16,760 bases of DNA from an uncultured Lachnospiraceae bacterium (GTDB taxonomy: Bacteria > Bacillota > Clostridia > Lachnospirales > Lachnospiraceae): the NCBI GenBank assembly GCA_934351765.1, contig CAKRJM010000025.1, positions 1-16,760 on the forward strand. Reading direction: 5' to 3'. The position numbers were made by a program, and so were the translations under genes. This document shows, piece after piece, positions 1 to 16,512 of this stretch (position 1 is its first letter; every line of letters starts with the position of its first letter). The notes beneath the pieces were generated by a model that saw only the letters and a program-made list of their open reading frames with translations, was not told the DNA's origin and searched no databases.

Positions 1-85
1 CTGCCTCTTTTGCTGGTATTGTATCTTCTTTTTAAACAATCCGCACAATTAAATTATTATTTTTATAGTATTTTTATGGATAAAT

Positions 86-115
86 AAATCCTGTCGTGTT
101 TCTCCGGCAGGATTT
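86..115 (-). terminator. Hairpin with T-rich tail in leader of unseen leftward gene
   Basis: Arms 86-96 and 105-115 pair over 11 bp (one G-T wobble) around an 8-nt loop. On the minus strand the hairpin is followed by a T-rich stretch. It lies about 30-60 nt downstream of the promoter at 150-178, so it could end a short transcript, act as an attenuator for a gene left of the window, or terminate the six-gene operon that reads through from the right. The sequence does not decide between these. Confidence 0.45.
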
Positions 116-149
116 TGTAATCCTTTTATTTTGTCTTTCTTATATATCA

Positions 150-178
150 ACACTACCAAAGTATTCATACTTTGTCAA
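150..178 (-). promoter_or_regulatory. Strong leftward promoter with perfect palindrome in its spacer
   Basis: On the minus strand TTGACA (173-178) is separated by 17 bp from TAGTGT (150-155), a good vegetative sigma promoter. The spacer and the end of the -35 box contain a perfect inverted repeat, CAAAGTAT-TC-ATACTTTG, at 157-174. A dimeric repressor bound there would block RNA polymerase. The promoter faces out of the window to the left, so its target gene is not visible. No regulator family could be assigned. Confidence 0.6.
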
Positions 179-234
179 CCAGTATTTGTGCAACTTTTTC
201 ATCATTACCAAATCAAACAACTGTCATCCAAACC

Positions 235-723
235 TCACAGCTTCGGCAGCCGTTTTACCGCCTCTGCCCCGGCGGCTCCCACGGCCAGTCCGGCGGCGCA
301 GCCGGAAACCAGCAGAACGGGAAGATAGGAAAAGACCGCAGTGTTTCCCAGGGCAAAGGCCGCCGCCGCGATCTGCCCGAGGTTGTGCATGACGCCTCCG
401 GCGAGGCTGACTCCCAAAATTCCGATCTTTCCGGTTTTTTTTAATAGAATCATAACCAGAAGGCTTAAGCTGCATCCGGCGAGGCTGTAAAGCATCATAT
501 TGGGATTTCCGAAGGTCAGCCCCGTGAGGAGCACGCGGATCACTGATACAAAAACAGCGCTCAGATTTCCCATCTGGTACAGGGCGACCACCACCACCAC
601 GTTCGCCAGCCCCAGCTTGATTCCGGGGACGGGAACGGGAATCACAAGAACGCTTTCTATGTAGCTGAAGATAAACGCCAGGGCGATCAAAAGCCCGTAA
701 CGCGCGATCTTTGAGGTTCTCAT
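235..723 (-). CDS. Gx transporter family / EetB-like small membrane protein
   Basis: This 162-residue protein is almost entirely hydrophobic, with about five or six membrane segments. It carries the PGIKLGLAN motif (residues 33-41) and a SLAGG...HNLGQ stretch (107-117) typical of the family often labelled 'heptaprenyl diphosphate synthase component I' or Gx transporter, whose fold resembles ECF S-components. No prenyl synthase catalytic motif is present, so the enzyme name is misleading. Homologues sit in Gram-positive flavin-based extracellular electron transfer loci as EetB, next to a NusG-II protein, as here. The start is supported by AAAGGAG about 5 nt upstream, 29 nt after the preceding gene. 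It is the last gene of the rnfC-led operon. A role in passing electrons to extracytosolic flavins or quinones is inferred. Confidence 0.8.
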   Translation of the reverse strand: MRTSKIARYGLLIALAFIFSYIESVLVIPVPVPGIKLGLANVVVVVALYQMGNLSAVFVSVIRVLLTGLTFGNPNMMLYSLAGCSLSLLVMILLKKTGKIGILGVSLAGGVMHNLGQIAAAAFALGNTAVFSYLPVLLVSGCAAGLAVGAAGAEAVKRLPKL

Positions 724-752
724 GGTGTCTCCTTTCCCGGCAGATCCGACGG

Positions 753-1118
753 TTACTGTGCAACCGCATCCACACTGCCGTGCTCGCCGCCCTCGATGGT
801 GACGGTTAATTTGTGGGGCAGGCAGATGATACTTTCTCCCTGACAGGAAATGGCTTTCTGGTTGACGCAGAGCCTGTCGGGGCAGTCTGCCTCTGTGACC
901 TTTGCTTTTCCGTCCTGAATTACCAGGAGATTTGTTCCGCGTCCCGTGTCGATCAGCTCCGATCGGGGTTCGGAAAGGGCGTAGCGTGCCGTTTCGGTTC
1001 CGTCCACCGTCACCACCACCTCTGCCCCGGGCTTTCTGGTAAGCCTCATAAACAGCCAGAGGCCGGCAGCCAGGACAAGGATCCCGGCGGCCAGCCAGAG
1101 TGTATATCGTTTCTTCAT
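753..1118 (-). CDS. NusG domain II-containing exported protein (EetA-like)
   Basis: A 121-residue protein with an N-terminal signal-anchor (about residues 6-25) and a single extracytoplasmic NusG-II domain. The diagnostic signature is visible: GTNLLVIQDGKAKVTEADCPDRLC followed by CLP; it is split here as GTNLLVIQDG (61-70) and EADCPDRLC (76-84), with cysteines 79, 84, 92 and 99. This domain is unrelated in function to the transcription factor NusG when it stands alone behind a membrane anchor. Proteins of this kind pair with Gx-type membrane proteins as EetA/EetB. Four cysteines outside the membrane are unusual and suggest a redox or metal role, which is inference. It lies 34 nt after the RnfA/E-like gene and 29 nt before the Gx gene; its ribosome site is weak. 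Confidence 0.82.
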   Translation of the reverse strand: MKKRYTLWLAAGILVLAAGLWLFMRLTRKPGAEVVVTVDGTETARYALSEPRSELIDTGRGTNLLVIQDGKAKVTEADCPDRLCVNQKAISCQGESIICLPHKLTVTIEGGEHGSVDAVAQ

Positions 1119-1152
1119 CTCATTCTCTCGATTCCAGTATGACAGTCCCGTA

Positions 1153-1902
1153 TTACAATACGGTCATTACCATGTAGATGATGCCCATGGTCAAGAAGTG
1201 GACCGGAAGCCTCTTCATATACGGCAGCGGAGATGAATACAGAAGCCTCTGACGCACTGCCATAAAGGCCACCAGCGCCAGAACTGTTCCAGCCAGTCCG
1301 CCGATGATCTCCGGAACTCCGCCCAGAACAAACGGCGAATAAAGCACCGTCATGGGAACCAGGGTCCAGAGGCTTTCATCAGAATCGCTGCACTTTAAGA
1401 TCCGGTTTGTGAGGCCAAGGCCAAGACCAGCCAGAATAAAACCAAATGCCGGTTTTAAATAAGCACCGGACACAGCCGCACCGTCTGTGATCAGGGAACC
1501 GAACAGGGTTCCGCTTCCGAGAAGCTCCCGGAAATACGCTGCCAGCATGAGCATTCCATATGCAACAGCCCCCTGAAGCACCAGATTATTGACCGATTCA
1601 TTTCCTCCCATGAGGAATACATAACGAACCACAAAAAGGGCAAGAAACGCAATGCCGATAATGGTCATGGTGTCCAGCTGTACACCTACATACAGAAAGG
1701 AACCGACAATCGCTGCTGCGGTAAGAAAGCCACTGAGGATTGAATTCGTCCACTGGCCGCCGCTGACGGGAACGCTTCGCAGGACACAGCCCACACAGGA
1801 TGCTGCCAGAAGCATGATCCCGACGATAACCGCCTGCTGCATGGAGGCGGTAAACATGATGAATGCCACCGCAAAAGGTTCCACAGGATATTTTGCTTTC
1901 AT
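1153..1902 (-). CDS. Divergent RnfA/RnfE-type membrane subunit without Fe-S cysteines
   Basis: This 249-residue polytopic protein keeps the RnfE landmark RELLGSGTLFG (residues 125-135) and the following segment that aligns with the PGAF..A..N region of RnfE. It therefore belongs to the RnfA/RnfE/NqrD/NqrE family. In classical subunits one Cys in each half binds a [2Fe-2S] cluster in the membrane (C31 and C114 in the RnfE of this window). At the matching places this protein has Phe/Thr at about 17-18 and Tyr/Val at 94-95. It also has about 80 extra C-terminal residues (from 170) with two further hydrophobic stretches; the usual length is 190-235. It is the only such subunit in its operon, instead of an A plus E pair. 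The start has GGGAGG 7 nt upstream, 15 nt after the FMN-binding gene. Confidence 0.75.
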   Translation of the reverse strand: MKAKYPVEPFAVAFIMFTASMQQAVIVGIMLLAASCVGCVLRSVPVSGGQWTNSILSGFLTAAAIVGSFLYVGVQLDTMTIIGIAFLALFVVRYVFLMGGNESVNNLVLQGAVAYGMLMLAAYFRELLGSGTLFGSLITDGAAVSGAYLKPAFGFILAGLGLGLTNRILKCSDSDESLWTLVPMTVLYSPFVLGGVPEIIGGLAGTVLALVAFMAVRQRLLYSSPLPYMKRLPVHFLTMGIIYMVMTVL

Positions 1903-1917
1903 TCTGATCCCTCCCGT

Positions 1918-2316
1918 CTATTTCGAAGCCTGTTCCATGGCGTCTTTCACCGCCGCCATGATACCCTTGGAGGACATGGTCGCGCCGCTGACTGCGTCCA
2001 CATTATAGGTCTGTGCGTCAACGATCTCCTGGGGGATCTGTTCCATGGCCGGTTCACAGATTCCGGCACTCTCGCTGTGTTCTACGACTTCCACCGATTC
2101 GATGGCCGTATCGGAAAAGGTTACTTTCACTTTGATTTCACCGTTGTTGCCCTGTCCGGTTCCGGTGTACTCACCGGCATTGTAGCCATTGGCTCCGGGT
2201 ACGGTCTGAGAGGAACCGCCTCCAGCCAGAAGCTTCGTCTCCAGAACAACAAAAAATGCAATGAACAGCACGACAACCAGTGTCGCCACACCACGGTATT
2301 TATTTTCTGTTTCCAT
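1918..2316 (-). CDS. rnfG: Minimal RnfG-type covalent FMN-binding protein
   Basis: A 132-residue protein with an N-terminal membrane anchor (about 10-30), a Gly/Ser-rich linker, and one FMN-bind domain. The flavinylation motif DAVSGATMSS (107-116) marks Thr113 as the residue that ApbE would link to FMN through a phosphoester. It is clearly shorter than the classical RnfG of the neighbouring operon (196 residues) and lacks most of its extracytoplasmic region. In Rnf, RnfG accepts electrons on the outer face of the membrane. The gene lies 2 nt after the rnfD paralogue, with GGAGG upstream of the ATG, and ends with TAG. It may be an RnfG substitute or a small electron-carrier domain of an EET-like chain. 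Confidence 0.82.
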   Translation of the reverse strand: METENKYRGVATLVVVLFIAFFVVLETKLLAGGGSSQTVPGANGYNAGEYTGTGQGNNGEIKVKVTFSDTAIESVEVVEHSESAGICEPAMEQIPQEIVDAQTYNVDAVSGATMSSKGIMAAVKDAMEQASK

Positions 2317-2318
2317 AA

Positions 2319-3245
2319 TTATTCCTCCGTTTTCTTCTTAGGCGCCACACCGTAGATATGGGGCTTGATGAACAGCTCAATGAAGTACGACAGGATATTC
2401 ACTGTCAGGATCGCAAAGCATACACCCTCAGGATAGGTCGGGCTGAAGATCCGGATCAGCGCCGTCAGAAGTCCGGCGATGATTCCAAACAGGACCTTTG
2501 CACGGGAAGAGCTCAGGGTATAGTCGGTCAGCATATAGCAGCCGCCCAGGATCAGTCCGCCTCCGAAGAGAGACACCAGAGGATTCATACCGGCGATAGA
2601 TGTAACCGCCACGGTCACTGCCAGGTAAACCACGGTGATGATCCAGTCCAGATCCTTTCGGACTGCCAGGAAGACAAAGCCCAGTAACAGAAGCAGGGCA
2701 CTCGTCTCACCTAACGCACCGGGAATCCGTCCCAGGAACATATCAAAAACAGAATAAGTAACCGCCTCTCCGTGTTTGGCCATGGTAAGCACCGTTGCCG
2801 AGGAAACCGCATCCGGGCCGGGAGCCACATAGCTCATGAGCTTGGAGGGATACACCACCATGACAAACAGACGGCCCATCAGAGCCGGATTGGCAAAATT
2901 GCTTCCGATCCCGCCGAAGCACTGCTTTACAACGATGATCGCAAAGGCAGAGGCCAGGATCGCCACCCATACCGGAGTATTGGATGATAAATTGAATGCC
3001 AGGAGCATACCGGTGACTACCGCACTGTAATCCATACGGACCGGCAGATGGTTAAGCTTCTCCCAGAGTGCTTCGCATGCCACACAGGTTGCCACACAGG
3101 CGAGTGTCAGGAAAAAGGCTCCGACACCGAAGAAGTATACGGCTCCGATGAATGCCGGAACCAGCGCCAGGCAGACATCTTTCATGATCCGTTCCGTGGT
3201 TTTCGGGGTCCGGATATGCGGATTCAGATATGTTTTTTCCATCAT
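2319..3245 (-). CDS. rnfD: RnfD paralogue, FMN-carrying membrane subunit
   Basis: A 308-residue NqrB/RnfD-family protein with about eight to ten membrane helices. Family landmarks are the early NPHIRTP segment (8-14), KQCFGGIGSNFANPAL (107-122) and the motif DAVSSATVL (145-153), in which Thr151 is the expected covalent FMN site. The C-terminal part has the usual NILSYFIELFI pattern. RnfD moves electrons through the membrane and is part of the ion-transport core. The gene overlaps the rnfC stop by 4 nt (ATGATG gives two possible starts 3 nt apart), with a purine-rich GGGGGAAG upstream. It is a paralogue of the rnfD at 8376-9314, not a recent copy: the two share motifs but much of the sequence differs. 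Confidence 0.88.
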   Translation of the reverse strand: MMEKTYLNPHIRTPKTTERIMKDVCLALVPAFIGAVYFFGVGAFFLTLACVATCVACEALWEKLNHLPVRMDYSAVVTGMLLAFNLSSNTPVWVAILASAFAIIVVKQCFGGIGSNFANPALMGRLFVMVVYPSKLMSYVAPGPDAVSSATVLTMAKHGEAVTYSVFDMFLGRIPGALGETSALLLLLGFVFLAVRKDLDWIITVVYLAVTVAVTSIAGMNPLVSLFGGGLILGGCYMLTDYTLSSSRAKVLFGIIAGLLTALIRIFSPTYPEGVCFAILTVNILSYFIELFIKPHIYGVAPKKKTEE

Positions 3246-4591
3246 TTCTTCCCCCTTTCCCGAATCATGGCACGCACATCATTTCGCGCTTTTACGGTAT
3301 TCTGGCAGAGATTGCGCTTTGCCGGACATACATAGGAGCAGCAGCCACAGCCGATGCATTCCGTTGCATACAGCTTTTCGCACCGTTCTGTATCTCCGTT
3401 CCGGACTGCGAAATCGATCTTCCAGGGTGTCAGTCCTGCCGGGCAGGCCTTAATACAGGAACCGCAGCGGATACAGGGCGTTTCCTCCACTCCGTCATTT
3501 TTCAGAAGTAAAAGACCGCCGCTCACCTTGGTCACAGACTGGGGCAGCTCCTTGCATTTGATCTGATGGCCGATACAGCCGCCGGTCATGGGGCCGCCCA
3601 GGATCACCTTATTGTCAAGCTCCGACGGGCCGCCGCATTTCTGAAGCAGCTCTCTGAGCGGTGTTCCAAGCGGAACCAGGAAGTTTCCGGGTTTTTTCAC
3701 CAGGCCGGTCACGGTGATGCAGCGGGTAATACTGGGTTCTTTTCCGAACACGGCATCCCCCATGGCCTTTGCCGTCTGAACATTGGAAACGATCACGCCT
3801 GCGTCCGCCGGAAGCCCTCCGGCAACCAGTTCTTTTCCTGTGGCTGCCTCAATGAGCTGGCGCTCGCCGCCCTGCGGATATTTTGTCGGAAATACCAGAA
3901 CCTCGATGGGAACCTGTTTGTCACCGATCAGCTTCTTTAAATGCTCCGCACAGTCTTTCTTATTATCCTCCGTACAGATCAGCGCTTTCTTCGCGCCGCC
4001 CGCCTTTACCAGTGCATGGACACCGTTTAAGATCTCCATGCCATGCTCCAGCATCATGCGGTAATCGCATGTTAAATAGCTTTCGCACTCGCAGGCATTT
4101 ACCAGGATATATTCAATGGGCTTATCAGTCTTATACTTCACATGAGCGGGAAAGCCGGCTCCGCCCATGCCGGTGATCCCGGCGTCTTCCATGATCCCGA
4201 TGAGATCCTCTTTGGAATACGCATCCAGAGACATCCATTCCTTTTTATAAGGAAGCTCCGGAACAGCCGGCTGCTTTTCGTCCGGCTTGATGATCAGGAC
4301 CGGTACCTCCATGGGACCCTTCTGCTCTGTGCGGATCCCGGTTACAGTACCGCTTACACTGGCATGAAGCTTCACTGCTGTGAAATTCTTCGGCTGCCCC
4401 ACAAGCTGGCCCCGCTCCACATGATCTCCCACCGCCACAAGCGGCTCACAGAGACTGGCACCGGACTGGGACATCGAAAGCTCGATGACCTCCGGAATAA
4501 AGGAAACAATCGGCTTACTCTTACTGAGTGCCTTATCTGAGCCGTCCGTGGGATGGACGCCGCCCGGAAACTTTTGTTCCTTGCTTCTCAT
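3242..4591 (-). CDS. rnfC: RnfC, NADH-facing cytoplasmic subunit
   Basis: A 449-residue protein with the standard RnfC layout: an N-terminal barrel-like domain (about 30-100, including LHASVSG at 75-81), a NuoF-like nucleotide/FMN domain with GMGGAGFP (141-148) and NACECESYLT (165-174), and two C-terminal [4Fe-4S] motifs (C373, C376, C379, C383 and C412, C415, C418, C422). In Rnf it exchanges electrons with NADH. The ATG at 4591 was chosen over one 24 codons upstream because AAGGAGG lies about 6 nt before it and homology begins there. It heads the six-gene operon. It is the only rnfC in the window, although the classical rnfDGEAB operon next door needs one, so it may serve both complexes. Confidence 0.93.
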   Translation of the reverse strand: MRSKEQKFPGGVHPTDGSDKALSKSKPIVSFIPEVIELSMSQSGASLCEPLVAVGDHVERGQLVGQPKNFTAVKLHASVSGTVTGIRTEQKGPMEVPVLIIKPDEKQPAVPELPYKKEWMSLDAYSKEDLIGIMEDAGITGMGGAGFPAHVKYKTDKPIEYILVNACECESYLTCDYRMMLEHGMEILNGVHALVKAGGAKKALICTEDNKKDCAEHLKKLIGDKQVPIEVLVFPTKYPQGGERQLIEAATGKELVAGGLPADAGVIVSNVQTAKAMGDAVFGKEPSITRCITVTGLVKKPGNFLVPLGTPLRELLQKCGGPSELDNKVILGGPMTGGCIGHQIKCKELPQSVTKVSGGLLLLKNDGVEETPCIRCGSCIKACPAGLTPWKIDFAVRNGDTERCEKLYATECIGCGCCSYVCPAKRNLCQNTVKARNDVRAMIRERGKK

Positions 4592-4619
4592 TCTTTCCTC
4601 CTTGCCTATAAACTCTCCG

Positions 4620-4636
4620 TTTTCCTGTCCGGAAAA
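4620..4636. promoter_or_regulatory. Inverted repeat in the apbE/rnfC divergent intergenic region
   Basis: TTTTCC (4620-4625) and GGAAAA (4631-4636) form an inverted repeat with a 5-bp centre. It covers the place where the -35 of the apbE promoter would be and lies about 30-45 bp upstream of the rnfC start. It could be an operator that co-regulates both directions, or a small hairpin in the rnfC leader. No clear promoter for rnfC itself was seen in this 85-bp interval. Confidence 0.3.
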
Positions 4637-4637
4637 A

Positions 4638-4671
4638 TATGCTATACTGATCTCAGACTGCATATAGGAGG
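4638..4671 (+). promoter_or_regulatory. apbE promoter (extended -10) and ribosome binding site
   Basis: An extended -10 element, TG-C-TATACT (4640-4648), lies about 30 bp upstream of the apbE ATG. The -35 is poor (TTTTCC at the right distance), which fits an extended -10 promoter or dependence on an activator. AGGAGG at 4666-4671 with a 5-nt spacer fixes the apbE start. Confidence 0.5.
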
Positions 4672-4676
4672 TTTAT

Positions 4677-5702
4677 ATGATAAATAATCGGATTACCCTT
4701 CGCCGGCTGATCCTGCTTTCTGCACTGATGCTGGTCTGCACCTGCATTTTCAGTGCCTGCGGCCGGAACCGGCAAAGCTCTGTATCAAAAACGACATTTT
4801 TATTAAATACTCAGGTCACCGTCACCCTTTACGGGACCGATGACGAGTCCATCATCGAGGACTGTTTTTCATTATGTAAATCTTATGAGGATCTGTTCAG
4901 CCGTACCGAGGAAGGCAGCGAGCTGTATCGGATCAATCACAGGGAAACGGACGAACTGTCGGACGACACGTTATCGCTGATCCGTACCGGTCTTTCCTAC
5001 AGTGAACGCTCCGGCGGTGCCTTTGACTTAACCATCGGCTCCTGCTCCTCCCTCTGGGATTTTACCTCGGAAACGCCTGTGGTCCCCGATCCGTCCGCTC
5101 TTGCGGAAGCCTTGACCCATGTGGGATTTCAGAAGGTTTCCCTTGACGGAAACCGAATCTCCTTTTCCGATAACGGAACGATCCTGGATCTCGGTGCCAT
5201 TGCCAAGGGCTATATTGCCGACCGCCTGAAGGACTTTTTGCTGGAACAGGGCGTTACAAGCGCCACCATCAGTCTCGGCGGAAATATCCTCTGTGTCGGT
5301 GCAAAGCCGGACGGCTCTGCCTTTAAGATCGGGATCCAGAAGCCCTTTGATGAACAGGGGCAGCCGCTCCTGATCGCAGAAGTAAACGACTGGTCCGTCG
5401 TCACCTCCGGTGTCTATGAGCGGTGCTTTGAACAGGACGGCGTGTTTTATCACCATATCCTGGATCCGTCCACCGGCTATCCCTGCGATAACGGGCTTCT
5501 CTCTGTGACGATCCTGAGTCCGGCCTCCGTGGACGGAGATGCCTTAAGCACCACCTGCTTTTCGCTGGGTCTCGACCGGGGCATGGCGCTGATCGACAGT
5601 CTGGAAAACACCTATGCCGTGTTCATCACCGACGATTATGAAATTCATTATTCTGCCGGTCTTACTGATGCCATTTCCATCACAGAAGCAGCTGCCCAAT
5701 GA
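4677..5702 (+). CDS. apbE: FAD:protein FMN transferase lipoprotein (ApbE)
   Basis: A 341-residue enzyme that transfers FMN from FAD to a Thr in target motifs, here the S(G/S/M)AT sites of the RnfG and RnfD subunits on both sides. Residues 8-28 form a lipoprotein signal with Cys28 as the likely lipidated residue. Family motifs are all present: GGAFDLTIG (113-121), DLGAIAKGY (171-179), SLGGN (199-203), HHILDPSTGYP (259-269) and the Mg-binding region DGDALSTT (286-293). It is the only gene on the plus strand, divergent from rnfC and convergent with rnfB, so it sits exactly between the two Rnf-type modules. It acts on the outer side of the cytoplasmic membrane. Catalytic residues look intact. Confidence 0.95.
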   Translation: MINNRITLRRLILLSALMLVCTCIFSACGRNRQSSVSKTTFLLNTQVTVTLYGTDDESIIEDCFSLCKSYEDLFSRTEEGSELYRINHRETDELSDDTLSLIRTGLSYSERSGGAFDLTIGSCSSLWDFTSETPVVPDPSALAEALTHVGFQKVSLDGNRISFSDNGTILDLGAIAKGYIADRLKDFLLEQGVTSATISLGGNILCVGAKPDGSAFKIGIQKPFDEQGQPLLIAEVNDWSVVTSGVYERCFEQDGVFYHHILDPSTGYPCDNGLLSVTILSPASVDGDALSTTCFSLGLDRGMALIDSLENTYAVFITDDYEIHYSAGLTDAISITEAAAQ

Positions 5703-5712
5703 CCTTATCCTC

Positions 5713-5733
5713 AAAAATCCCTTTTCAGGATTT
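5713..5733 (-). terminator. Weak terminator after rnfB
   Basis: On the minus strand, AAATCC (5728-5733) and GGATTT (5715-5720) form a 6-bp stem with a 7-nt loop, directly followed by a run of five T (5713-5717, partly in the stem), about 12 nt past the rnfB stop. The stem is short and AT-rich, so the call is tentative. It lies in the 42-bp gap between the convergent apbE and rnfB genes. Confidence 0.35.
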
Positions 5734-5744
5734 CCCTGCGCTTC

Positions 5745-6488
5745 TTACACGATTGCCTTCATCGGGCACTTCTCCGCACAGGTTCCGCAGCCCGTACACT
5801 TCGTTTCGTCGATCCGTGCTACGCCGCTCTCCAGAGAGATGGCTCCTGCCAGACAGTTCTTCGCACAGACACCGCAGCCGATACATGCATAACGGCAGAC
5901 CTCTTTTGCTGCCTTTCCTTTATCCAGGTTTGAGCAGGCCACCATATGACCTGCCAGCTTGGGAACCATGGCAATGACATGGCGGGGACACTTCTCGGCA
6001 CACTGTCCGCAGCCCACACACTTCTCATCATCCACAGTCGCCAGACTGTCTTCCACATGGATCGCACCAAACTTACATGCCTTCTCGCAGAGACCGCAGC
6101 CGATGCAGCCGTACTTACAGATCTTCCGCCCCTTTTCATTCAGGGTCGCATGGACCAGATCGCCCTTGCACTGTACAAAGGCCTTCCGCTGTTCTGCTGC
6201 TTTGACCTCGACACCAAGCACTTTTCCGATGGCTTCTGCCGCTGCAGCACCGCCTACGGGACAGGCATTGGGCTTCGCCTCACCGGTGAAGATCGCATGC
6301 GCCAGTGCATCGCACCCGGCATATCCGCAGCCGCCGCAGTTATTTCCAGGCAGGCACTTTCGGATATTCTGTTCTTTTTCATCTACCGTGACGGCGAAGA
6401 ATTTTCCGGCAATGCCAAGAAGAACGCCGATCACCAGTCCTGTGATCCCGACCACCAGAGTGGCCGCTATGATTCCACTCATATCCAT
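5745..6488 (-). CDS. rnfB: RnfB, polyferredoxin subunit
   Basis: A 247-residue protein with an N-terminal membrane helix (about 5-28), an Fe-S domain with C45, C51, C54, C59 and C76 (the NCGGCGYAGC region), and four [4Fe-4S] ferredoxin motifs beginning at C128, C157, C202 and C231. RnfB is the entry point for electrons from reduced ferredoxin in the ferredoxin:NAD+ oxidoreductase. GGAGGAAAG upstream supports the ATG at 6488, 15 nt after rnfA. It is the last gene of the classical rnfDGEAB operon. The rnfC-led operon has no RnfB counterpart, so only this one could supply ferredoxin electrons to either module. Confidence 0.95.
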   Translation of the reverse strand: MDMSGIIAATLVVGITGLVIGVLLGIAGKFFAVTVDEKEQNIRKCLPGNNCGGCGYAGCDALAHAIFTGEAKPNACPVGGAAAAEAIGKVLGVEVKAAEQRKAFVQCKGDLVHATLNEKGRKICKYGCIGCGLCEKACKFGAIHVEDSLATVDDEKCVGCGQCAEKCPRHVIAMVPKLAGHMVACSNLDKGKAAKEVCRYACIGCGVCAKNCLAGAISLESGVARIDETKCTGCGTCAEKCPMKAIV

Positions 6489-6503
6489 ATCTTCTTTCCT
6501 CCT

Positions 6504-7085
6504 TTAGAATTTCAGATCGCTGAAGCCCATAAAGGCGATGGACATGAGCGCTGCCGTGATCAGAACAATGGGTGCACCCTGCAGGTTCTCCGGAATATCA
6601 TTGTCGGCAATTCTTTCACGGATTCCGGCAAGAATGATAATGGAGATGGTATAGCCGAGAGCTGTACCAAAGCCGCATACGACGCTCTGTGCCATGTTGT
6701 ACTTGTTCAGTACGTTTTTCAGTGCCACACCAAGTACCGCACAGTTGGTTGTGATCAGCGGAAGATAAACGCCCAGCGCCCGGTAAAGGGCCGGGATAAA
6801 TTTTTTCAGGAACATTTCCACTACCTGAACCAGCGCTGCGATTACCAGGATAAAGACAATGGTCTGAAGATATTCCAGATGGAACCGCACCAGGATCTGA
6901 TAGTATAACAGGTTTGCCACCGCCGAGGCAATGGTGATAACAAAGCATACGGCGCTTCCCATTCCGGCTGCCGTTCTTGTATTGGTAGATACACCAAGGA
7001 ACGAACATAAGCCCAGGAACTGGCTCAGCACCACGTTATTGAGGAGCGCAGCCGAGATCGCAATAAAAATCAGTTCTTTGATCAT
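6504..7085 (-). CDS. rnfA: RnfA, integral membrane subunit
   Basis: A 193-residue protein with six membrane helices in two inverted halves, the usual length for RnfA. The membrane [2Fe-2S] ligands are present: C27 in GLCSFLG and C115 in TTNCAVLG. The C-terminal signature IRERIADNDIPENLQG (155-170) followed by the SIAFMGF segment is classical. With RnfE it carries electrons across the membrane during ferredoxin-driven Na+ or H+ pumping. It overlaps the rnfE stop by 4 nt, indicating translational coupling. Confidence 0.95.
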   Translation of the reverse strand: MIKELIFIAISAALLNNVVLSQFLGLCSFLGVSTNTRTAAGMGSAVCFVITIASAVANLLYYQILVRFHLEYLQTIVFILVIAALVQVVEMFLKKFIPALYRALGVYLPLITTNCAVLGVALKNVLNKYNMAQSVVCGFGTALGYTISIIILAGIRERIADNDIPENLQGAPIVLITAALMSIAFMGFSDLKF

Positions 7086-7792
7086 GCCTTCTCCTCCTTT
7101 CCGTTTTCAGAGATACAGCCGTGGCATGCCATGCAGTTTCCGTTGCAGCCGGCCTTGGGCTTTCCTCGTTTATTAGTTGCCGATTTCAGTCCCAGCTTAT
7201 TCTGGATGGCCGCCAGAGCCGCCACGACCAGGAATGCTCCGGGAGACTGTACCAGGATCCCGATGGGAGCAAACGTTGCGTTCGGACGGAGAATATTCAC
7301 ACCGAACATGGTTCCTGCACCGATCAGCTCTCTGCAAATACCGATCATTCCGAGTGCCACAGTAAAGCCGAGCCCCATACCGATGCCGTCACACATGGAC
7401 AGGAAAATCCCGTTCTTGGACGCAAAGGATTCCGCCCGTCCTAAAATGATACAGTTTACAACGATCAGAGGTATGTAAACACCGAGGGAATCATACAAGG
7501 TAGGCACATAGGCCTCCAGTAAGAATTCCACTACGGTTACAAACGTCGCAACCACTACGATATAGGCCGGCATACGTACACCGTCCGGAATGATTTTCCG
7601 AAGCGCCGAGATCATCATATTGGAAAGGATCAGAACCGCTGCGGTGGAAAGTCCCATGCCGATACCGTCAATGGCGGTCTTCGTAACTGCCAGGGTCGGA
7701 CACATGCCAAGCGCCAGCACAAAGATGGGATTCTCTGTCACAATTCCCTTAAAAATCTGTTTTGAACCATCTTTCATTTTCATGTTTCTCAC
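7082..7792 (-). CDS. rnfE: RnfE, integral membrane subunit with Cys-rich tail
   Basis: A 236-residue RnfE with six helices. Landmarks are GMCPTLAVTK with C31, VVNCIILGRAESFA with C114 (the two membrane [2Fe-2S] ligands), and CRELIGAGTMFG (153-164). After the last helix a cytoplasmic-type tail contains C216, C220, C223, C226 in a CNGNCMACHGC pattern that could bind metal or an extra Fe-S cluster; this is inference. It overlaps both the rnfG stop and the rnfA start by 4 nt. It partners RnfA in the ion-pumping core. Confidence 0.95.
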   Translation of the reverse strand: MRNMKMKDGSKQIFKGIVTENPIFVLALGMCPTLAVTKTAIDGIGMGLSTAAVLILSNMMISALRKIIPDGVRMPAYIVVVATFVTVVEFLLEAYVPTLYDSLGVYIPLIVVNCIILGRAESFASKNGIFLSMCDGIGMGLGFTVALGMIGICRELIGAGTMFGVNILRPNATFAPIGILVQSPGAFLVVAALAAIQNKLGLKSATNKRGKPKAGCNGNCMACHGCISENGKEEKA

Positions 7793-8379
7793 TCTCCTTT
7801 CGCACAGTATGCCGCGAATGCCATACCGCCGTTGGCCGCATTGACCACTGCGTTGGAAGTGATCGTTGCACCGGAGATCTGGTCAATATTATCATTTAAT
7901 ACAAATTCATCCGTTTTTGTCTGAAACTGATCCTTGAACTCCGGCTCATCTGCCAGGGCTCCCAGCTTTGCGGTCTCACTGCTGGTAAGGATATCAATTC
8001 CCATGGTCGTACCGTCTACAGCTTCGCCATATGCCATCGTGATCTCCCCCTGGGAGCCTGCGAAGTCGAGGGTCATTACATAACCTAAAAGTGTTCCGGA
8101 ACCATCCACAGCCTTTAAGCACTCCGTCACAGTTACACCGGAGATCCCTGCCGCCTCCAGAATAGACTCGGAATCCTCCACATAGCCGTTGATGGCATCA
8201 TCCTCCTCAAAGGACTGTGCCTCTGAAAACACACTCTGATAGGCTTCTTTCTTTTCCCGCGCCTGACGTTCCGCGATGGGGCCCTTCGTGATCTGGTAAG
8301 CCACACCGAGAAGCAGACCGGAGATCAGCGTGATCACAAAAAGGATCAGCGCATTTTTCACGATTGTTTTTACACTCAT
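7789..8379 (-). CDS. rnfG: RnfG, covalent FMN subunit of the classical Rnf
   Basis: A 196-residue protein with an N-terminal membrane anchor (about 8-28), an extracytoplasmic region and a C-terminal FMN-bind domain. The flavinylation motif DQISGATITS (166-175) identifies Thr172 as the FMN attachment site for ApbE. TAKLGALADEPEFKDQF (about 137-153) is the typical preceding RnfG stretch. It overlaps rnfD and rnfE by 4 nt at each end. It is 64 residues longer than the paralogue at 1918-2316, mainly in the region between the anchor and the FMN site. Confidence 0.95.
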   Translation of the reverse strand: MSVKTIVKNALILFVITLISGLLLGVAYQITKGPIAERQAREKKEAYQSVFSEAQSFEEDDAINGYVEDSESILEAAGISGVTVTECLKAVDGSGTLLGYVMTLDFAGSQGEITMAYGEAVDGTTMGIDILTSSETAKLGALADEPEFKDQFQTKTDEFVLNDNIDQISGATITSNAVVNAANGGMAFAAYCAKGE

Positions 8380-9314
8380 CTCTGCGCCTCCTTTTCTTCT
8401 ACCGGCTGCACTTTCGGTGCAAAGAACTTATCGATCAGAGGTACCAGAAGATTACAGAAGATCACCGCATAGGAAACGCCCTCGGTGTTGGTCCCGAGAA
8501 GCCGGTAAATACCGGTCACAGCGCCCAGCAGCACGCCGTAGATCACCTTTCCGACAATTCCAACCGGACTTGTTACACGGTCTGTTGCAAAGAAGAACGC
8601 GGCAAACAGAAGTCCGCCGCCCAGGAGCTGGCTGAGCAGATAATGAGGAGAGGTATTCCCCCCGAACAGACAGACAACTGCCGTGAACACAGCCAGATAA
8701 ACCACAGGCGTGATCACCGAAATCTTTCTGGCCACAATAAGGAACAGTGCGCCGATCAGCAGCGCCAGAACAGACGCCTCACCGATACAGCCTGCCTTTG
8801 GATTATAAAGAAACATCTGCCACAGATCGGTAGTACCGCCACTTCTCATGACGGACAGCGGCGTAGCCATGGACATTCCATCCACCACATATGTCGTCAT
8901 CACATCTTTGAAACTGATCAGCAGGAAACAGCGTGAAACCAGAACCGGGTTGATAATGTGAGCGCCATAGCCGCCGAAGCAGTGCACCACAATCACCGTG
9001 GCGAAAATCCCGCCAAGGATCGGAACATACAAAGGAACCTCTGCCGGCAGACAAAGACCCAGCAGAAGTCCGGTCAGCAGTGCCGTTCCGTCCATGGTCG
9101 TAATTGAACGCTTCATGAGCCGTTCAAAAAAATATTCCGAAGCCACGGAAGCAATAATGGACGCCAGCAGTACACGGATCGCGCGGAAGCCGAACGCATA
9201 ACACCCGACGATCACAACAGGCAGCAGCGCAACACAGTAGTTTGCTGTAATAGCCCGCAGGCTTTCGGGGGTTCTGTAACGGGATTCCACAGCCGGTTTA
9301 AAAAAAGCCTTCAC
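8376..9314 (-). CDS. rnfD: RnfD, FMN-carrying membrane subunit of the classical Rnf
   Basis: A 312-residue NqrB/RnfD-family protein with about eight to ten helices. HCFGGYGAHIINPVL (111-125) and GMSMATPL (146-153) are the landmarks, with Thr151 as the expected covalent FMN site. The start codon is GTG at 9314; AGAGGTG about 7 nt upstream and homology from the first residues (PAVESRYRTPES) support it. It is the first gene of the rnfDGEAB operon, about 58 nt after the likely transcription start. Clostridial rnf operons normally begin with rnfC, which is absent here. Confidence 0.94.
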   Translation of the reverse strand: MKAFFKPAVESRYRTPESLRAITANYCVALLPVVIVGCYAFGFRAIRVLLASIIASVASEYFFERLMKRSITTMDGTALLTGLLLGLCLPAEVPLYVPILGGIFATVIVVHCFGGYGAHIINPVLVSRCFLLISFKDVMTTYVVDGMSMATPLSVMRSGGTTDLWQMFLYNPKAGCIGEASVLALLIGALFLIVARKISVITPVVYLAVFTAVVCLFGGNTSPHYLLSQLLGGGLLFAAFFFATDRVTSPVGIVGKVIYGVLLGAVTGIYRLLGTNTEGVSYAVIFCNLLVPLIDKFFAPKVQPVEEKEAQR

Positions 9315-9373
9315 CGTTTAACACCTCTTTCTTTTGAATTTTCTGCATACGAATTGCTGTATACATTATACTT

Positions 9374-9397
9374 ATCCCCATTATAGCATCGGGGGAT
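9374..9397. promoter_or_regulatory. Inverted repeat flanking the rnfD -10 box
   Basis: ATCCCC (9374-9379) and GGGGAT (9392-9397) form perfect 6-bp arms 12 bp apart, enclosing the -10 hexamer of the rnfD promoter. A dimeric regulator contacting both arms would block the promoter. No regulator is recognised from the arm sequence, and chance occurrence is possible. Confidence 0.3.
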
Positions 9398-9407
9398 TTT
9401 TTTTCAA
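9380..9407 (-). promoter_or_regulatory. rnfDGEAB promoter
   Basis: On the minus strand TTGAAA (9402-9407), a 16-bp spacer and a perfect TATAAT (9380-9385) preceded by TG-C (extended -10) form a strong vegetative promoter. The predicted start near 9373 gives a leader of about 58 nt before the rnfD GTG. This shows that the rnfDGEAB operon has its own promoter, independent of any upstream rnfC. Confidence 0.72.
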
Positions 9408-9410
9408 TAA

Positions 9411-9428
9411 TTGTTACTAAATGAACAA
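9411..9428. promoter_or_regulatory. Rex-like operator upstream of the rnfD promoter
   Basis: TTGTTACTAAATGAACAA matches the clostridial Rex consensus TTGTTAA-N4-TTAACAA at 12 of its 14 defined positions, with arms ATTGTT/AACAAT symmetric about the centre. It ends only 3 bp from the -35 box. Rex is the NADH/NAD+-sensing repressor, and an Rnf complex that makes NADH is a logical target. A single extra half-site TTAACAA lies at 9442-9448. The rex gene is not in the window. Confidence 0.5.
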
Positions 9429-9500
9429 TATAAGTTTTTTTTTAACAATATCTAAAATTTTTATGAATTGGGTAGCTTTTTCGTTAAAATATAAACACAA

Positions 9501-9562
9501 GGACTGTCCCTGCTCATTCCACAGACGGAATGTTTCCGCGCCAAAATAAAAGAAACTGTCCC
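9501..9562. repeat. Possible small repeat element with GGGACAG termini
   Basis: Read on the minus strand, two direct copies of GGGACAGT (one in CAGGGACAGTCC, one in GGGGACAGTTTC) flank a hairpin with CATTCC/GGAATG arms (9515-9532). Elements with GGGACAG-type ends are recalled as scattered repeats in Clostridia and other bacteria. Only one copy is in the window, so its repetitive nature could not be tested. Confidence 0.3.
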
Positions 9563-9612
9563 CGCCTCCCCACCCATACCGAAATATGTAATATTTTTGA
9601 TGATCGCAACAC

Positions 9613-9679
9613 AAAAGCCAGGAACTGCTTTCCATCATGTGTTATCCCCGCCACATGACAGAAGCTGTTCCTGGCTTTT
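9613..9679 (-). terminator. Terminator hairpin after the surface protein gene
   Basis: A 13-bp perfect outer stem (9613-9625 with 9667-9679), one T-T mismatch, a further short stem and an inner CATGTG/CACATG hairpin (9635-9641 with 9652-9658) fold into one long structure. On the minus strand it ends in TTTTGTGTT, about 40 nt past the surface-protein stop; on the plus strand it also ends in five T. It separates that gene from rnfDGEAB and may work in both directions. Confidence 0.7.
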
Positions 9680-9719
9680 TATTTCGACTTATCTTTTCTT
9701 GATATTGTTACTGCTTCTC

Positions 9720-11813
9720 TTATGCCCGTTTCTTCTTTATTACAACAAAGGCTGCTGCCCCGGCACTTACCAGCAGTAAAAACAGCCACAGAGCCGGTAC
9801 TGCATGATCGCTGGTATCCGGCGTTTTTCCGCCTGTCGCGGGCTGTGCCGCTGCCGGCTTTGTTCCTGTTCCGGGTTTTTCAGGATTGGTTCCACCGCCG
9901 GGAAGCTTTGCGATCAGAGTAGCTTCTTTCTTGATTTCCTTGACTGCCTGCGCATCTGCAAAATACTTTCCGCACTCACCGCAGTACCAGTATTCAATGT
10001 TGCCTTCCGTATCCTTGGTGGCTGCATTGGCATTGACATGCTTCAGCATACCGTGATTTGCGCTGTTCAGTTCTCCGTACTCTGCGCCGCAGATCTCGCA
10101 CACAGCTTTCTTTGTGCAGGTCGCCGTTCCACCCTTATGGATGCACTTATAACCACACTCGCTGCATACACCGTCTTGCCACTCATGATCTTCTTCTGCG
10201 ACTGCAGCCGCACCACAACAATTATATTTCTTCTCATGCTTGGTCTCGGTCGTTGTCCACACAGCTTCACCGGTATGGTTTGCTGCATCCAAATCTCCAT
10301 AGGCAGTTCCGCATACACCACATTCTGCCTGCTTCGTGCAGGTTGCCGTTCCGCCGGAGTGGCTGTCACATTCTACGGTTCCGCCATCCGCTGCAAAAGT
10401 GCCTGCAACGGTGACCGTTCCATGGTTTACAAAGGTAGTTCCGCTTCCCACCTTTAAGGAAGTTCCCTCCGGGATCAGAAGCTCCATATCAGAAGCTACC
10501 TCTGCATCACCCGGAAGCAGGGCATCTCCGATCACCTTACCGGATTTTCCGTTGAACAGCACGCTGTTCGCAATGCTGTCAGAGCCTTCGGTAAATGCTT
10601 CCGTTCCGGAAGTCTCGATCCAGGAACCGGTAACGGTCGCTGTATCGTTTGCCCGGATACCGTCATAGTCCTCGCCGGCTTCTGCCTTAACGATACTGTT
10701 CTCGATCTCCACATTACCACGCGAGAAGATTCCGACATCATCTGTCGCTTTCGCTTCCACATAACTATCTGCAATAGAAACTGCATCGTTTCCGAATAAT
10801 GCCGGATAATAACCACTTGCCTTTACCACTGCGCCATCCGAAATTTTGATCGACTTATCCGCATAAATCCCATTGGAGTAAACACTGTCCGCGATAACAG
10901 TTCCTCCGGAGACCGCAAGGCTTCCGCTTATCGACATAGCCACGTCATAGCCGCTTGCTTTGATCTGTGCCTGATCATTTACCGTAACATTTCCATAAGA
11001 TGCGATGCCAAATCCACAATACTTACCGGTAGAATCTTTTCCCTCTGCTTCCAGATAGCTGTTTCCTTCCATCAGAAGATCAGCGGCTCCAAATATTTCC
11101 AGGCCGCTTACCGAAGCACTTGCCGGTGTGGACATATCATCCTGTAAACAATACAGCTTTGCGCTATCCTTTAACGTCACAGAATGAGTTTTATCACCGT
11201 TCTTTACGCCGACTTTCAGCGCCGGATACTTTCCTCCGCCGATATAGGTTACAGATGCTGCTCCGTCCAACACACAGGGACCGTTCCACTCACTGGAATC
11301 TCCCGCAGTGGCAGGCGTTGTTACCACGATCTTTGTGTCCGTAATATGCAGTGCACTGGGCATATAGGATGTTTTCTGCGTCACCCTCAGGGAAGATGCC
11401 CGAAGTGTTCCTGTACCCTTGATGGTCAGATCGTTGGCAGATACCCTGCTGATGGTATTATCTGTTCCAGCCGGAATATCCAGTACCATTTTTACCGGAC
11501 TGTTCTCGACAATGATTCCTCCGCCAATCTCAACATTATTGGTACGGATATAAAATGCCTGATCGATGTCCGAAGCATTATTGCTTCCCCAGATACTGAT
11601 CTTCTTATCCGTTGTCCCGGTAAGCTCATACATGACATCTCTCTTCCGGAGAATGATCCTGCTGTCATCGATCTTATAATCTTCATTATCCACATTCTCT
11701 CCACTGACATCCAGTTTGACCACCGTATCCTCCGGTGCGGCCATTGATGACAGCGGTATGATACATAGTACCAGACAGATGGCCATCAACATGCTCAATA
11801 TTCGCTTCTTCAT
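9720..11813 (-). CDS. Secreted beta-helix surface protein with variant wall-sorting signal
   Basis: A 697-residue protein with a signal peptide (about 1-25). Residues about 60-480 hold many short Gly/Asn/Ser-rich repeats of the parallel beta-helix or DUF4353-like carbohydrate-binding-domain type (for example SYGNVTVNDQAQIKASGYDV then YADKSIKISDGAVVKASGYY). A Cys-rich module follows, with two copies of GGTATCTK.A.C..CG..YG.L..ANH (487-513 and 561-587) and further CxxC pairs. The C-terminus has a Pro/Gly/Thr linker, TPDTS (664-668), a hydrophobic segment and a KKKRA tail, which is a sortase-type signal with T and S in place of L and G of LPXTG. The ATG has AGGAGG about 6 nt upstream. The gene stands alone with its own promoter and terminator. 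Its ligand is unknown; adhesion or glycan binding is inferred. Confidence 0.8.
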   Translation of the reverse strand: MKKRILSMLMAICLVLCIIPLSSMAAPEDTVVKLDVSGENVDNEDYKIDDSRIILRKRDVMYELTGTTDKKISIWGSNNASDIDQAFYIRTNNVEIGGGIIVENSPVKMVLDIPAGTDNTISRVSANDLTIKGTGTLRASSLRVTQKTSYMPSALHITDTKIVVTTPATAGDSSEWNGPCVLDGAASVTYIGGGKYPALKVGVKNGDKTHSVTLKDSAKLYCLQDDMSTPASASVSGLEIFGAADLLMEGNSYLEAEGKDSTGKYCGFGIASYGNVTVNDQAQIKASGYDVAMSISGSLAVSGGTVIADSVYSNGIYADKSIKISDGAVVKASGYYPALFGNDAVSIADSYVEAKATDDVGIFSRGNVEIENSIVKAEAGEDYDGIRANDTATVTGSWIETSGTEAFTEGSDSIANSVLFNGKSGKVIGDALLPGDAEVASDMELLIPEGTSLKVGSGTTFVNHGTVTVAGTFAADGGTVECDSHSGGTATCTKQAECGVCGTAYGDLDAANHTGEAVWTTTETKHEKKYNCCGAAAVAEEDHEWQDGVCSECGYKCIHKGGTATCTKKAVCEICGAEYGELNSANHGMLKHVNANAATKDTEGNIEYWYCGECGKYFADAQAVKEIKKEATLIAKLPGGGTNPEKPGTGTKPAAAQPATGGKTPDTSDHAVPALWLFLLLVSAGAAAFVVIKKKRA
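10053..10133 (-). repeat. Cys-rich repeat, copy 2, in surface protein
   Basis: Codes for residues 561-587, GGTATCTKKAVCEICGAEYG followed by ELNSANH. It shares most residues with copy 1, including all three cysteines (C..C in CEIC and the earlier TCT) and the closing ANH. The CxxC pairs suggest a small metal-binding or disulfide unit. Confidence 0.65.
10275..10355 (-). repeat. Cys-rich repeat, copy 1, in surface protein
   Basis: Codes for residues 487-513, GGTATCTKQAECGVCGTAYG followed by DLDAANH. It starts 74 residues before copy 2. Between the copies lie further Cys pairs (CC at about 532-533 and CSEC at about 550-553). Confidence 0.65.
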
Positions 11814-11897
11814 AAAATTCCTCCTGTTCTTTACTCCCGCTCATGCCCTATTGCCATTGGCCCGATCCAGCCGCTGACAATACCTCATATGCTTTTA

Positions 11898-11926
11898 ACT
11901 ATACTTATTTTTTCTCATTCTGTCAA
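11898..11926 (-). promoter_or_regulatory. Surface protein promoter
   Basis: On the minus strand a perfect TTGACA (11921-11926), a 17-bp A-rich spacer and TATAGT (11898-11903) form a strong vegetative promoter, giving a leader of about 78 nt to the ATG at 11813. No clear operator or riboswitch was seen in the leader. Confidence 0.72.
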
Positions 11927-11974
11927 TAACCTCACGTAAAACGTACAAAAATCTGCGCAGACTGCACAAAAATA

Positions 11975-12051
11975 CTCCCACGGCTCCACCCATGTCCGGC
12001 ACAGGCAACTTTGATATGTGCCAGTGACGGATATGGGTGGAGCCGCGGGAG
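11975..12051 (-). terminator. Very long terminator hairpin after ctpA
   Basis: Arms 11975-12009 and 12018-12051 are near-perfect inverted repeats of about 34 bp (four non-Watson-Crick positions, one of them a G-U in RNA). On the minus strand the hairpin is followed by TATTTTTG and starts about 13 nt past the ctpA stop. It ends the ftsE-ftsX-hydrolase-ctpA operon and insulates the surface-protein promoter. The arms are about three times longer than a normal intrinsic terminator. Confidence 0.75.
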
Positions 12052-12064
12052 CTTTTATTTGAAT

Positions 12065-13267
12065 TTACTGCTGTCCGAGCACCTCCAGTGCTTTCTCCAG
12101 CTGACTGTCGGTCTCGCCGCTTTCGGCCTCTACCTCCACATCAGGCGTGATGCCGATGCCATGGATGCAGGTTCCGTTGGGTGTGTAGTAATTGGCGGAG
12201 GTGATCTTCATGGCAGTGCCATCCGTAAACGGAATTATGTTCTGGACGATTCCCTTTCCGAAGGTTGTGGTGCCGATGATGGTCGCCAGCCCGTCATCCT
12301 TCAGTGCGCCGGTAACGACCTCGGAGGCACTGGCGGAATTGCCGTTTACCAGGACTGCCATAGGGCCTTCGTACGCCACATCGGAATTGGCGCTGCTGAC
12401 TACTTCTCTGTCATTTTTATCTCTGGTGGAAACGATGGTTCCCCCGGAGATAAAGTCATCGGCAATCTTCACTGCCTGATCCAATAATCCTCCGGGATTG
12501 TTCCTAAGATCCAGGATCAGGGACGTCATGCCCTGGCTCTTGAGGTCGGCAAGGGCTTCTGAAAACTGATCATAGGTCACGCTGTCAAACTCGGTGATCT
12601 GGATATAGCCGGTCTGGTTTTCCAGCAGCTTCCATTCCACCGTATCCATTTGAACAGAACGGCGCTCCACCTCCATGGTGATATAATCCTTAATAGAGGG
12701 ACGGTATACCTCGATCTCCACCGTAGTTCCTTCTTTGCCGCGGATCTTGGAAACGATATTGTCGGAGTTCGTTTCTCCGGTAATATCGGTGCCGTCCACC
12801 TTGGAAAGCACATCATCTGCTGCCATGCCGGCTTCTTCTGCGCCTGAGCCCCGGAACACCCGGAGTACCGTACAAAGTCCGGTCGCAGGATCCTGGCTGA
12901 ACTGGATTCCGATTCCCACATAGGCACCGCTGGTGGATTCCATCAGCTTCTTGTATTCCTCTGCCGTATAATAGACCGTATAGGGATCTCCCAGACTGGA
13001 AACATACCCCTTATAAATCCCGTCCTTCATGGCTTCTTCATCCATGTCATATAAAAACGTCTGGTTGAGCTGTCCCTGTAAAATATTCAGCTTGCTTTCG
13101 ATTTCCTGATAGTCAAGCCCGGCATTTTCTTCCGTCTGGCCGTTGGACCCTGTCCTTGATGCCGACAGAAATGTCGTGATTCCCCAGATGGAAACGGCGG
13201 CAATCACAAGACTCACAACAACGCCTGCCAGCACGCCTTTCCAGAAATGATTCCCCTGCTGTTCCAT
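12065..13267 (-). CDS. ctpA: C-terminal processing peptidase, S41 family (CtpA)
   Basis: A 400-residue serine protease with an N-terminal membrane anchor (about 11-33), a PDZ domain (about 113-185, beginning AYVGIGIQF) and an S41 protease domain. The catalytic Ser is S313 in NSASASE (310-316) and the Lys is K338 in TFGKGIVQ (335-342), 25 residues apart as in E. coli Prc and B. subtilis CtpB, with the usual Gln at 342. It acts outside the membrane and trims or degrades envelope proteins, often peptidoglycan hydrolases or their regulators. AAGGAGG 5 nt upstream supports the start. It lies 68 nt after the M23 hydrolase in the FtsEX operon, so that hydrolase is a plausible substrate (inference). 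Confidence 0.94.
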   Translation of the reverse strand: MEQQGNHFWKGVLAGVVVSLVIAAVSIWGITTFLSASRTGSNGQTEENAGLDYQEIESKLNILQGQLNQTFLYDMDEEAMKDGIYKGYVSSLGDPYTVYYTAEEYKKLMESTSGAYVGIGIQFSQDPATGLCTVLRVFRGSGAEEAGMAADDVLSKVDGTDITGETNSDNIVSKIRGKEGTTVEIEVYRPSIKDYITMEVERRSVQMDTVEWKLLENQTGYIQITEFDSVTYDQFSEALADLKSQGMTSLILDLRNNPGGLLDQAVKIADDFISGGTIVSTRDKNDREVVSSANSDVAYEGPMAVLVNGNSASASEVVTGALKDDGLATIIGTTTFGKGIVQNIIPFTDGTAMKITSANYYTPNGTCIHGIGITPDVEVEAESGETDSQLEKALEVLGQQ

Positions 13268-13335
13268 GAATCCTCCTTTTCATGGTCTCCTGTGATCCAG
13301 GAGGCCCGGTTCTTTTTCTCTTCTGTCCCGGCCTT

Positions 13336-14379: not shown

Positions 14380-14385
14380 ATCCTC

Positions 14386-14388
14386 CTA
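14386..14388 (-). other. In-frame amber (TAG) codon inside the hydrolase gene
   Basis: The minus-strand codons read CAG-TAG-GAG-GAT-ATG-AAG, with the coiled coil continuing in the same frame on both sides. Related proteins commonly have a Q-Y-E-[D/E]-M type sequence here, so TAG probably replaced a Tyr codon (TAT or TAC) by one base change. TAG also ends ftsE, ftsX and the short rnfG in this window, so it is a normal stop in this genome. Confidence 0.85.
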
Positions 14389-14802: not shown

Positions 14803-14818
14803 GCTCCGGCCGTCCTTC

Positions 14819-16415: not shown

Positions 16416-16512
16416 AAAAAGCCTCAATTCCAGTAAACCTTTTGTGAACAGAAATTTCCTGTTCCACAGGGAAACACTCCGATGCAGCCTTCCGGCCGGT
16501 CAGAAGTTTTCC

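Follow-up and report, generated by a model that had tools for sequence, protein, structure and literature searches.

In the classical Rnf complex, electrons are described as running from RnfB to the [2Fe-2S] cluster of the RnfA/RnfE (A/E) pair, then to the flavin mononucleotide (FMN) of RnfG, to RnfD, to RnfC and to nicotinamide adenine dinucleotide (NAD+) (PMC12174285; this and the other published reports are cited from excerpts of their text). RnfE and RnfA are inverted relative to each other (PMC9588780), and in each subunit the breaks in helices 1 and 4 hold the cluster ligands, four in all (PMC9588780, PMC11889175). For Acetobacterium woodii a cluster-gated Na+ pump has been described, and mutation of the cluster cysteines abolished activity and autotrophic growth (PMC11889175); elsewhere RnfD itself is called the Na+-translocating subunit (PMC9588780), and the site of ion pumping, the A/E cluster or RnfD, is still disputed. 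The subject of this work is a gene, termed X, in a 16,760-nucleotide stretch of DNA from an uncultured Lachnospiraceae bacterium (GCA_934351765.1, contig CAKRJM010000025.1, positions 1 to 16,760; hereafter the window), which lies on the minus strand at 1153-1902 and encodes 249 residues, with GGGAGG 7 bases before the ATG. We propose, with somewhat better than even confidence, that X is a remnant of the RnfE/RnfA pair on a single chain and belongs to a separate half-Rnf module with a putative NADH-to-outside route.

Profile comparisons indicate that X is composed of two parts. Residues 1-170 (1393..1902, minus strand) form an RnfE/NqrD-like six-helix part without ligand cysteines, and residues 171-249 plus the stop codon (1153..1392, same strand) resemble helices 4-6 of RnfA, with Ser189 opposite the second ligand cysteine of RnfA; we consider it very probable that residues ~1-170 are a diverged RnfE and residues ~175-249 a diverged second half of RnfA. 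A profile of X sequences matched 38 of the 39 RnfE sequences gathered from the analysed loci through its first two thirds and 30 of the 39 RnfA sequences through its last third (29 within profile positions 186-255, one from 154), whereas none of 156 reversed or shuffled controls matched and none of 36 RnfD sequences did so with the tail part. In hhalign the X tail reached a probability of 95.5 against the 39 RnfA sequences and 0.8 against RnfE, while column shuffles of the tail gave at most 18.2 (60 shuffles) and the reversed tail 0.2. An independent PDB search also retrieved the A. woodii RnfA, albeit weakly. Alternatively, X could simply be an RnfE that has diverged and carries an unrelated hydrophobic tail, in which case the likeness to RnfA would be chance among membrane helices. 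The low identities would agree with this, as would the lower certainty of the structural model in the tail and the VIA list, in which only NqrD/RnfE chains of Rnf/Nqr complexes appear, though with one chain per entry; in view of the preference of the tail for RnfA over RnfE, the behaviour of the controls and the PDB match, we hold this explanation to be very unlikely.

Kinship with the RnfA/E type had been proposed in an initial annotation of the sequence, and the profile comparison supports common descent of X with the Rnf-Nqr family PF02508 (RnfA/RnfE), as a remote member: X falls below all curated cut-offs, the window protein gives no PF02508 match at an E-value of 0.1, and 2 of 29 X members match at all, the best at 0.0046. 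The structural model adopts the six-helix Rnf/Nqr fold, NqrD/RnfE chains being its top matches over residues 1-170 to 1-231. The motif RELLGSGTLFG, also pointed out in that annotation, occupies residues 125-135 and corresponds to the RE(L/F) motif of RnfE/NqrD and RnfA/NqrE. The approximately 80 extra C-terminal residues noted at the time are real, but they are not new sequence, being homologous to RnfA helices 4-6. As read from the alignments, a single X chain covers roughly three quarters of an A/E pair. The earlier statement that it stands alone rather than as a pair is thus correct for the gene, since no rnfA or rnfE directly flanks X in the window or in 26 related loci (those of the 25 genomes with strong matches, plus L004; all of limited length), but only in part for the protein, whose tail resembles the second half of the partner.

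How such a chain could arise is suggested by the topology of the subunits. The C-terminus of RnfE is cytoplasmic and the N-terminus of RnfA lies outside, from which we infer that RnfE cannot be followed directly by a whole RnfA but can be by one that lacks helices 1-3. The predicted topology of X is largely consistent with charge counts, the mean number of lysines plus arginines being 3.32 at residues 216-233, called inside, and 0.26 and 0.24 at residues 188-197 and 73-77, called outside; the exception is a mean of 1.30 at residues 131-150, called outside. Open frames of ~400 amino acids had brought up a full natural RnfE-RnfA fusion as the ancestor, a candidate that was dropped because RnfA was absent from all 39 RnfE frames.

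Both ligand cysteines are present in 39 of 39 RnfE and 39 of 39 RnfA sequences, and the classical RnfE (C31/C114) and RnfA (C27/C115) of the window have them, as reported before; the loss of cysteines in X is therefore more than chance. The window X contains only C36, C39 and C171. In the printed profile alignments the second RnfE cysteine aligns with L89 and the second RnfA cysteine with S189, with modest column confidence around these positions (0.28-0.45); the first RnfE cysteine would correspond to about residues 12-15, outside the aligned stretch, where the alignment is not resolved, and nothing in X corresponds to the first half of RnfA. Helix 4 of RnfE is broken, in contrast to helix 78-97 of the X model, which is continuous there. 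Among 51 aligned X rows (49 distinct sequences; P0013, which looks frame-shifted, P0001, identical to the window, and P0027, an ordinary PF02508 protein, were excluded, and L004, cut at a contig end, was omitted wherever the tail was counted), none has a cysteine at residues 10-16 or 86-90, hence none at residue 89. The absence of cysteines from the matching positions, as originally claimed, is borne out by these results. Two cysteines that the annotation had named as possible occupants of the cluster site, C36 and C39, lie elsewhere, inside model helix 21-43, and are not conserved (8 and 11 of 33 sequences); they were rejected as ligands. Window X thus has no pair of cluster cysteines at broken helices 1 and 4, and therefore, going by the excerpts on A. 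woodii, neither the usual [2Fe-2S] path nor the cluster-gated Na+ pump can run through it, which upholds, for this protein, the earlier conclusion that electron passage by the usual cluster is impossible.

A different picture could apply to a side-clade around L059. Cysteine is found at residue 17 in 15 of the 51 rows and at residue 189, facing the second RnfA ligand, in 12; 12 rows hold both, three hold one and 36, including the window, hold neither. Accordingly, the side-clade may have kept or regained two ligand-like cysteines, and one could imagine that X retains a metal site or pumps by another gate, e.g. as a homodimer in which each chain has two cysteines, a notion with which the invariance of R125-E126 among X sequences would also be compatible. 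As the 12 rows are close relatives, the window and 35 other rows lack both cysteines and no row has one at residue 89, opposite the second RnfE ligand, we regard this as distinctly unlikely for X. Even less credible is that X is a functionless, decaying product of an old A/E fusion. Half a subunit and the ligands have indeed been lost; however, an open frame of at least 245 residues is kept in all 25 genomes (one stop was noted in the matched stretch of G282), the motifs and the place in the operon are conserved, and the rate of nonsynonymous substitution (dN) of 0.16 against a synonymous rate (dS) of 2.0 between the window and L001 (NG86; dS saturated) points to purifying selection, leaving this option extremely improbable.

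X marks a module of four genes, RnfC-RnfD-FMN_bind-X. In the 397 genomes sampled from the family Lachnospiraceae, to which the centre genome G001 belongs, 37 contained an X match (E <= 0.001), 25 of them strong (1.5e-21 or better) and 12 weak. Six of the weak genomes were inspected: L061-L065 are ordinary rnfCDGEAB clusters matched in RnfE, and the match in G301 (L066), at a locus without an Rnf gene, was taken as chance. Even samples of 398 phylum and 391 class genomes yielded no true X beyond G001; 95 phylum genomes matched at 1e-6, of which the 94 besides G001 were weak; their matched ranges agree with RnfE or, for the four genomes G541, G403, G726 and G563, with the RnfA end, gene identity having been checked for L061-L065 in the family, by coordinates for G403 and judged by range for the remainder. 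Partner genes were counted by phmmer with the window proteins. RnfC is near X in 23 of the 26 related loci (the locus is truncated by a contig end in L003 and L048, and L040 has none) and a separate second RnfD (D2) in 24, L040 lacking it and L059 having an RnfC-RnfD fusion of 886 residues (L059:10180-12837, minus strand) near an X with cysteines at 17 and 189. In 25 of 26 loci, all but L060, the gene immediately upstream of X is of the FMN_bind type (judged by match or motif), FMN_bind was confirmed by Pfam in 17 of 17 scanned partners, and the partner in L055 lacks the [ST]GA[TS] motif. ApbE-like genes were found near X in 15 loci, NusG_II in seven and PF07456-like genes in seven; the suspected tie of X to NusG_II genes was therefore not sustained, the usual partners being RnfC, RnfD and FMN_bind. 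The combination of ApbE with an FMN_bind protein carrying [ST]GA[TS], typical of flavinylated extracytosolic systems, occurs in the window and was seen in relatives.

The X loci do not form a six-subunit A-B-C-D-E-G module: RnfE, RnfA and RnfB are near X in five, six and six of the 26 loci, where they form a separate run of genes upstream of rnfC, and in the window the stretch from rnfC to X contains neither rnfA nor rnfE. X might still partner classical RnfA/RnfE or join the classical complex, e.g. as a regulator or a pumping/non-pumping switch, given that an RnfE/RnfA pair occurs in 23 of 25 X genomes, that classical genes adjoin X in the window, L001, L002, L004, L052, L055 and L060, and that a single RnfC was observed alongside the two RnfD-type modules of the window. 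Against this, G317 has no PF02508 match and G224 only a 24.9-bit fragment (both drafts of unknown completeness), RnfA or RnfB was not found near X in 20 of the 26 loci, and the X-linked RnfD forms a separate clade, its 25 rows being divided from 11 classical rows by a branch with 100/100 support. On balance we judge an association with the classical complex unlikely.

The initial suggestion of a non-pumping or purely structural unit fits X itself, but not the module, which looks redox-competent because the cofactor motifs of RnfC, RnfD and the FMN_bind protein are all preserved. The covalent-FMN threonine is kept in 36 of 36 RnfD rows (X-linked rows read TVL, classical rows TPL; SSATVL in the window D2), the X-linked RnfC rows shown keep GMGGAGF and both [4Fe-4S] motifs, the window RnfC has two [4Fe-4S] motifs besides GMGGAGFP, and the short FMN_bind protein has an N-terminal hydrophobic helix and a SGAT flavinylation motif (VDAVSGATMSS). 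From its gene content, we think a one-way NADH-to-outside route through the RnfD flavins is somewhat more likely than not. NADH would donate to RnfC (FMN and two [4Fe-4S] clusters), RnfC to the riboflavin and covalent FMN of RnfD, where electrons would cross the membrane, and the FMN_bind protein would receive them and pass them to an outside acceptor. The module would then correspond to the second leg alone of the half-circle in classical Rnf, working in reverse, and such a return leg would need neither the [2Fe-2S] cluster nor RnfB. X is best read as a cluster-free scaffold that would take the place of the A/E dimer, docking the membrane helix of the FMN_bind protein and filling the pore; a cluster-free protein could suffice because, in the Clostridium tetanomorphum structure, the helices of RnfG and RnfB pack in a bundle together with a single helix from RnfA and another from RnfE (PMC9588780).

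In two of 17 scanned partners (L039 and L040), FMN_bind is fused to a FAD_binding_2 domain like that of flavocytochrome c-type fumarate reductases (TIGR01813 at 528.9 and 458.9 bits against a cut-off of 285.45), the best PDB relatives of the L040 fusion being fumarate reductases, followed by urocanate reductase. By its domains the X partner can therefore be a terminal reductase, which argues for outward electron flow, and in these two genomes the acceptor step would probably proceed via the fused fumarate/urocanate-type reductase. In L040, X and the reductase-fused partner stand without RnfC and RnfD, a case that the full RnfC-RnfD route leaves unexplained and that suggests X belongs foremost to the FMN_bind protein. 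Since RnfD has been called Na+-translocating in the excerpt cited above, we hold the lack of pumping with less confidence than the route. The two-part homology, the missing ligands, the gene set and the kept cofactor motifs are observed features, whereas the direction of electrons, the docking role of X and the absence of pumping are inferred. The combined proposal, to which we give an even chance, is a half-Rnf with its pump discarded, in which a ligand-free three-quarter A/E subunit is the plug and RnfC-RnfD work in reverse as a one-way wire from NADH to the outside that supplies flavin carriers or a respiratory reductase fused on; because RnfA lost an odd number of helices, the E-A' fusion would have become topologically possible.

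In comparison with RnfE/NqrD and RnfA/NqrE, X shares the fold of the first part, the RnfA-like tail and an operon with RnfC/D and an FMN_bind gene. The classical Rnf complex (7zc6, 9eri, 8ahx) likewise has RnfC, RnfD and a flavinylated G-type subunit, whereas the C-D-FMN_bind-X run lacks RnfA, RnfB and RnfE. Nqr/Rnf-like systems resemble the module as partial Rnf systems with RnfD-type and FMN_bind subunits, and one-way, NADH-driven electron export has been proposed for them (PMC8238504, PMC10979944); according to the excerpts, however, their RnfD carries a fused NqrF-type NAD domain and its FMN site is not conserved, while the X module has a separate RnfC, keeps the FMN threonine, contains X and has a D2 with PF03116 only, without a PF00175 fusion. 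The Listeria-type extracellular electron transfer locus (PMC9973259) shares PF07456 (EetB family) and ApbE neighbours and a flavinylated outside carrier, but in the X module electrons would enter by RnfC/RnfD. The titles and abstract openings of the papers listed by literature searches mentioned no cysteine-free RnfE/RnfA and no RnfC-RnfD-FMN_bind module with an X-like subunit. A natural module with apparently intact RnfC, RnfD and FMN protein and a cluster-free A/E remnant is a ready test of RnfD alone, and it would add NADH-linked electron export in gut Lachnospiraceae, some with a fused fumarate/urocanate-type reductase.

On the minus strand of the window, rnfD-G-E-A-B (9314-5745) is followed, beyond the divergent apbE, by rnfC-D2-FMN_bind-X-NusG_II-PF07456 (4663-235), and in L001 the two modules also adjoin each other in this order. 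The X-linked run comprises RnfC (3242..4663; TIGR01945, 381.6 bits, cut-off 245.95), D2 (2319..3245; TIGR01946, 242.2 bits, cut-off 207.05) and the RnfG-like FMN_bind partner (1918..2316; PF04205, 5.1e-19), and downstream of X lie the NusG_II protein (753..1118; PF07009, 7.9e-30), a putative EetA, and the PF07456 protein (235..723; 3.3e-38). PF07456 is the family of EetB, the S component of a flavin adenine dinucleotide exporter in Listeria, and is reported to adjoin Rnf genes in 572 Clostridia genomes (PMC9973259). The ApbE flavin transferase is encoded on the plus strand (4677..5702; PF02424, 6.2e-84). The classical minus-strand genes are rnfD (8376..9314; SMATPL; TIGR01946, 218.1 bits, cut-off 207.05), rnfG (7789..8379; PF04205, 2.7e-13; TIGR01947, 85.6 bits, below the cut-off of 102), rnfE (7082..7792; TIGR01948, 243.4 bits, cut-off 213.4), rnfA (6504..7085; TIGR01943, 255.5 bits, cut-off 229.3) and rnfB (5745..6488), a ferredoxin-type protein named from its place, the same in L001 and L002, and from its domains (FeS PF04060 and several 4Fe-4S domains).

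Some further features were seen. A second, long RnfC (open frames of 656-692 amino acids) occurs at G001:C39:20214-21488, and similarly in G002, G349, G397, G321, G091, G389, G224, G030, G348 and G369; in G001 both RnfD matches are on a contig other than that of the long RnfC. Two X genomes have a further RnfC-RnfD pair (G002:C5:48925-51173 and G349:C222:4995-7243). The window RnfE ends in a cysteine-rich tail (CNGNCMACHGC, residues 216-226), which could be an extra metal site; among 10 RnfE of related loci, L001 and L002 share its spacing and most others are differently spaced. Finally, 9720-11813 on the minus strand encodes a large secreted-looking protein with repeated cysteine-rich segments, a C-terminal hydrophobic stretch and a positive tail.
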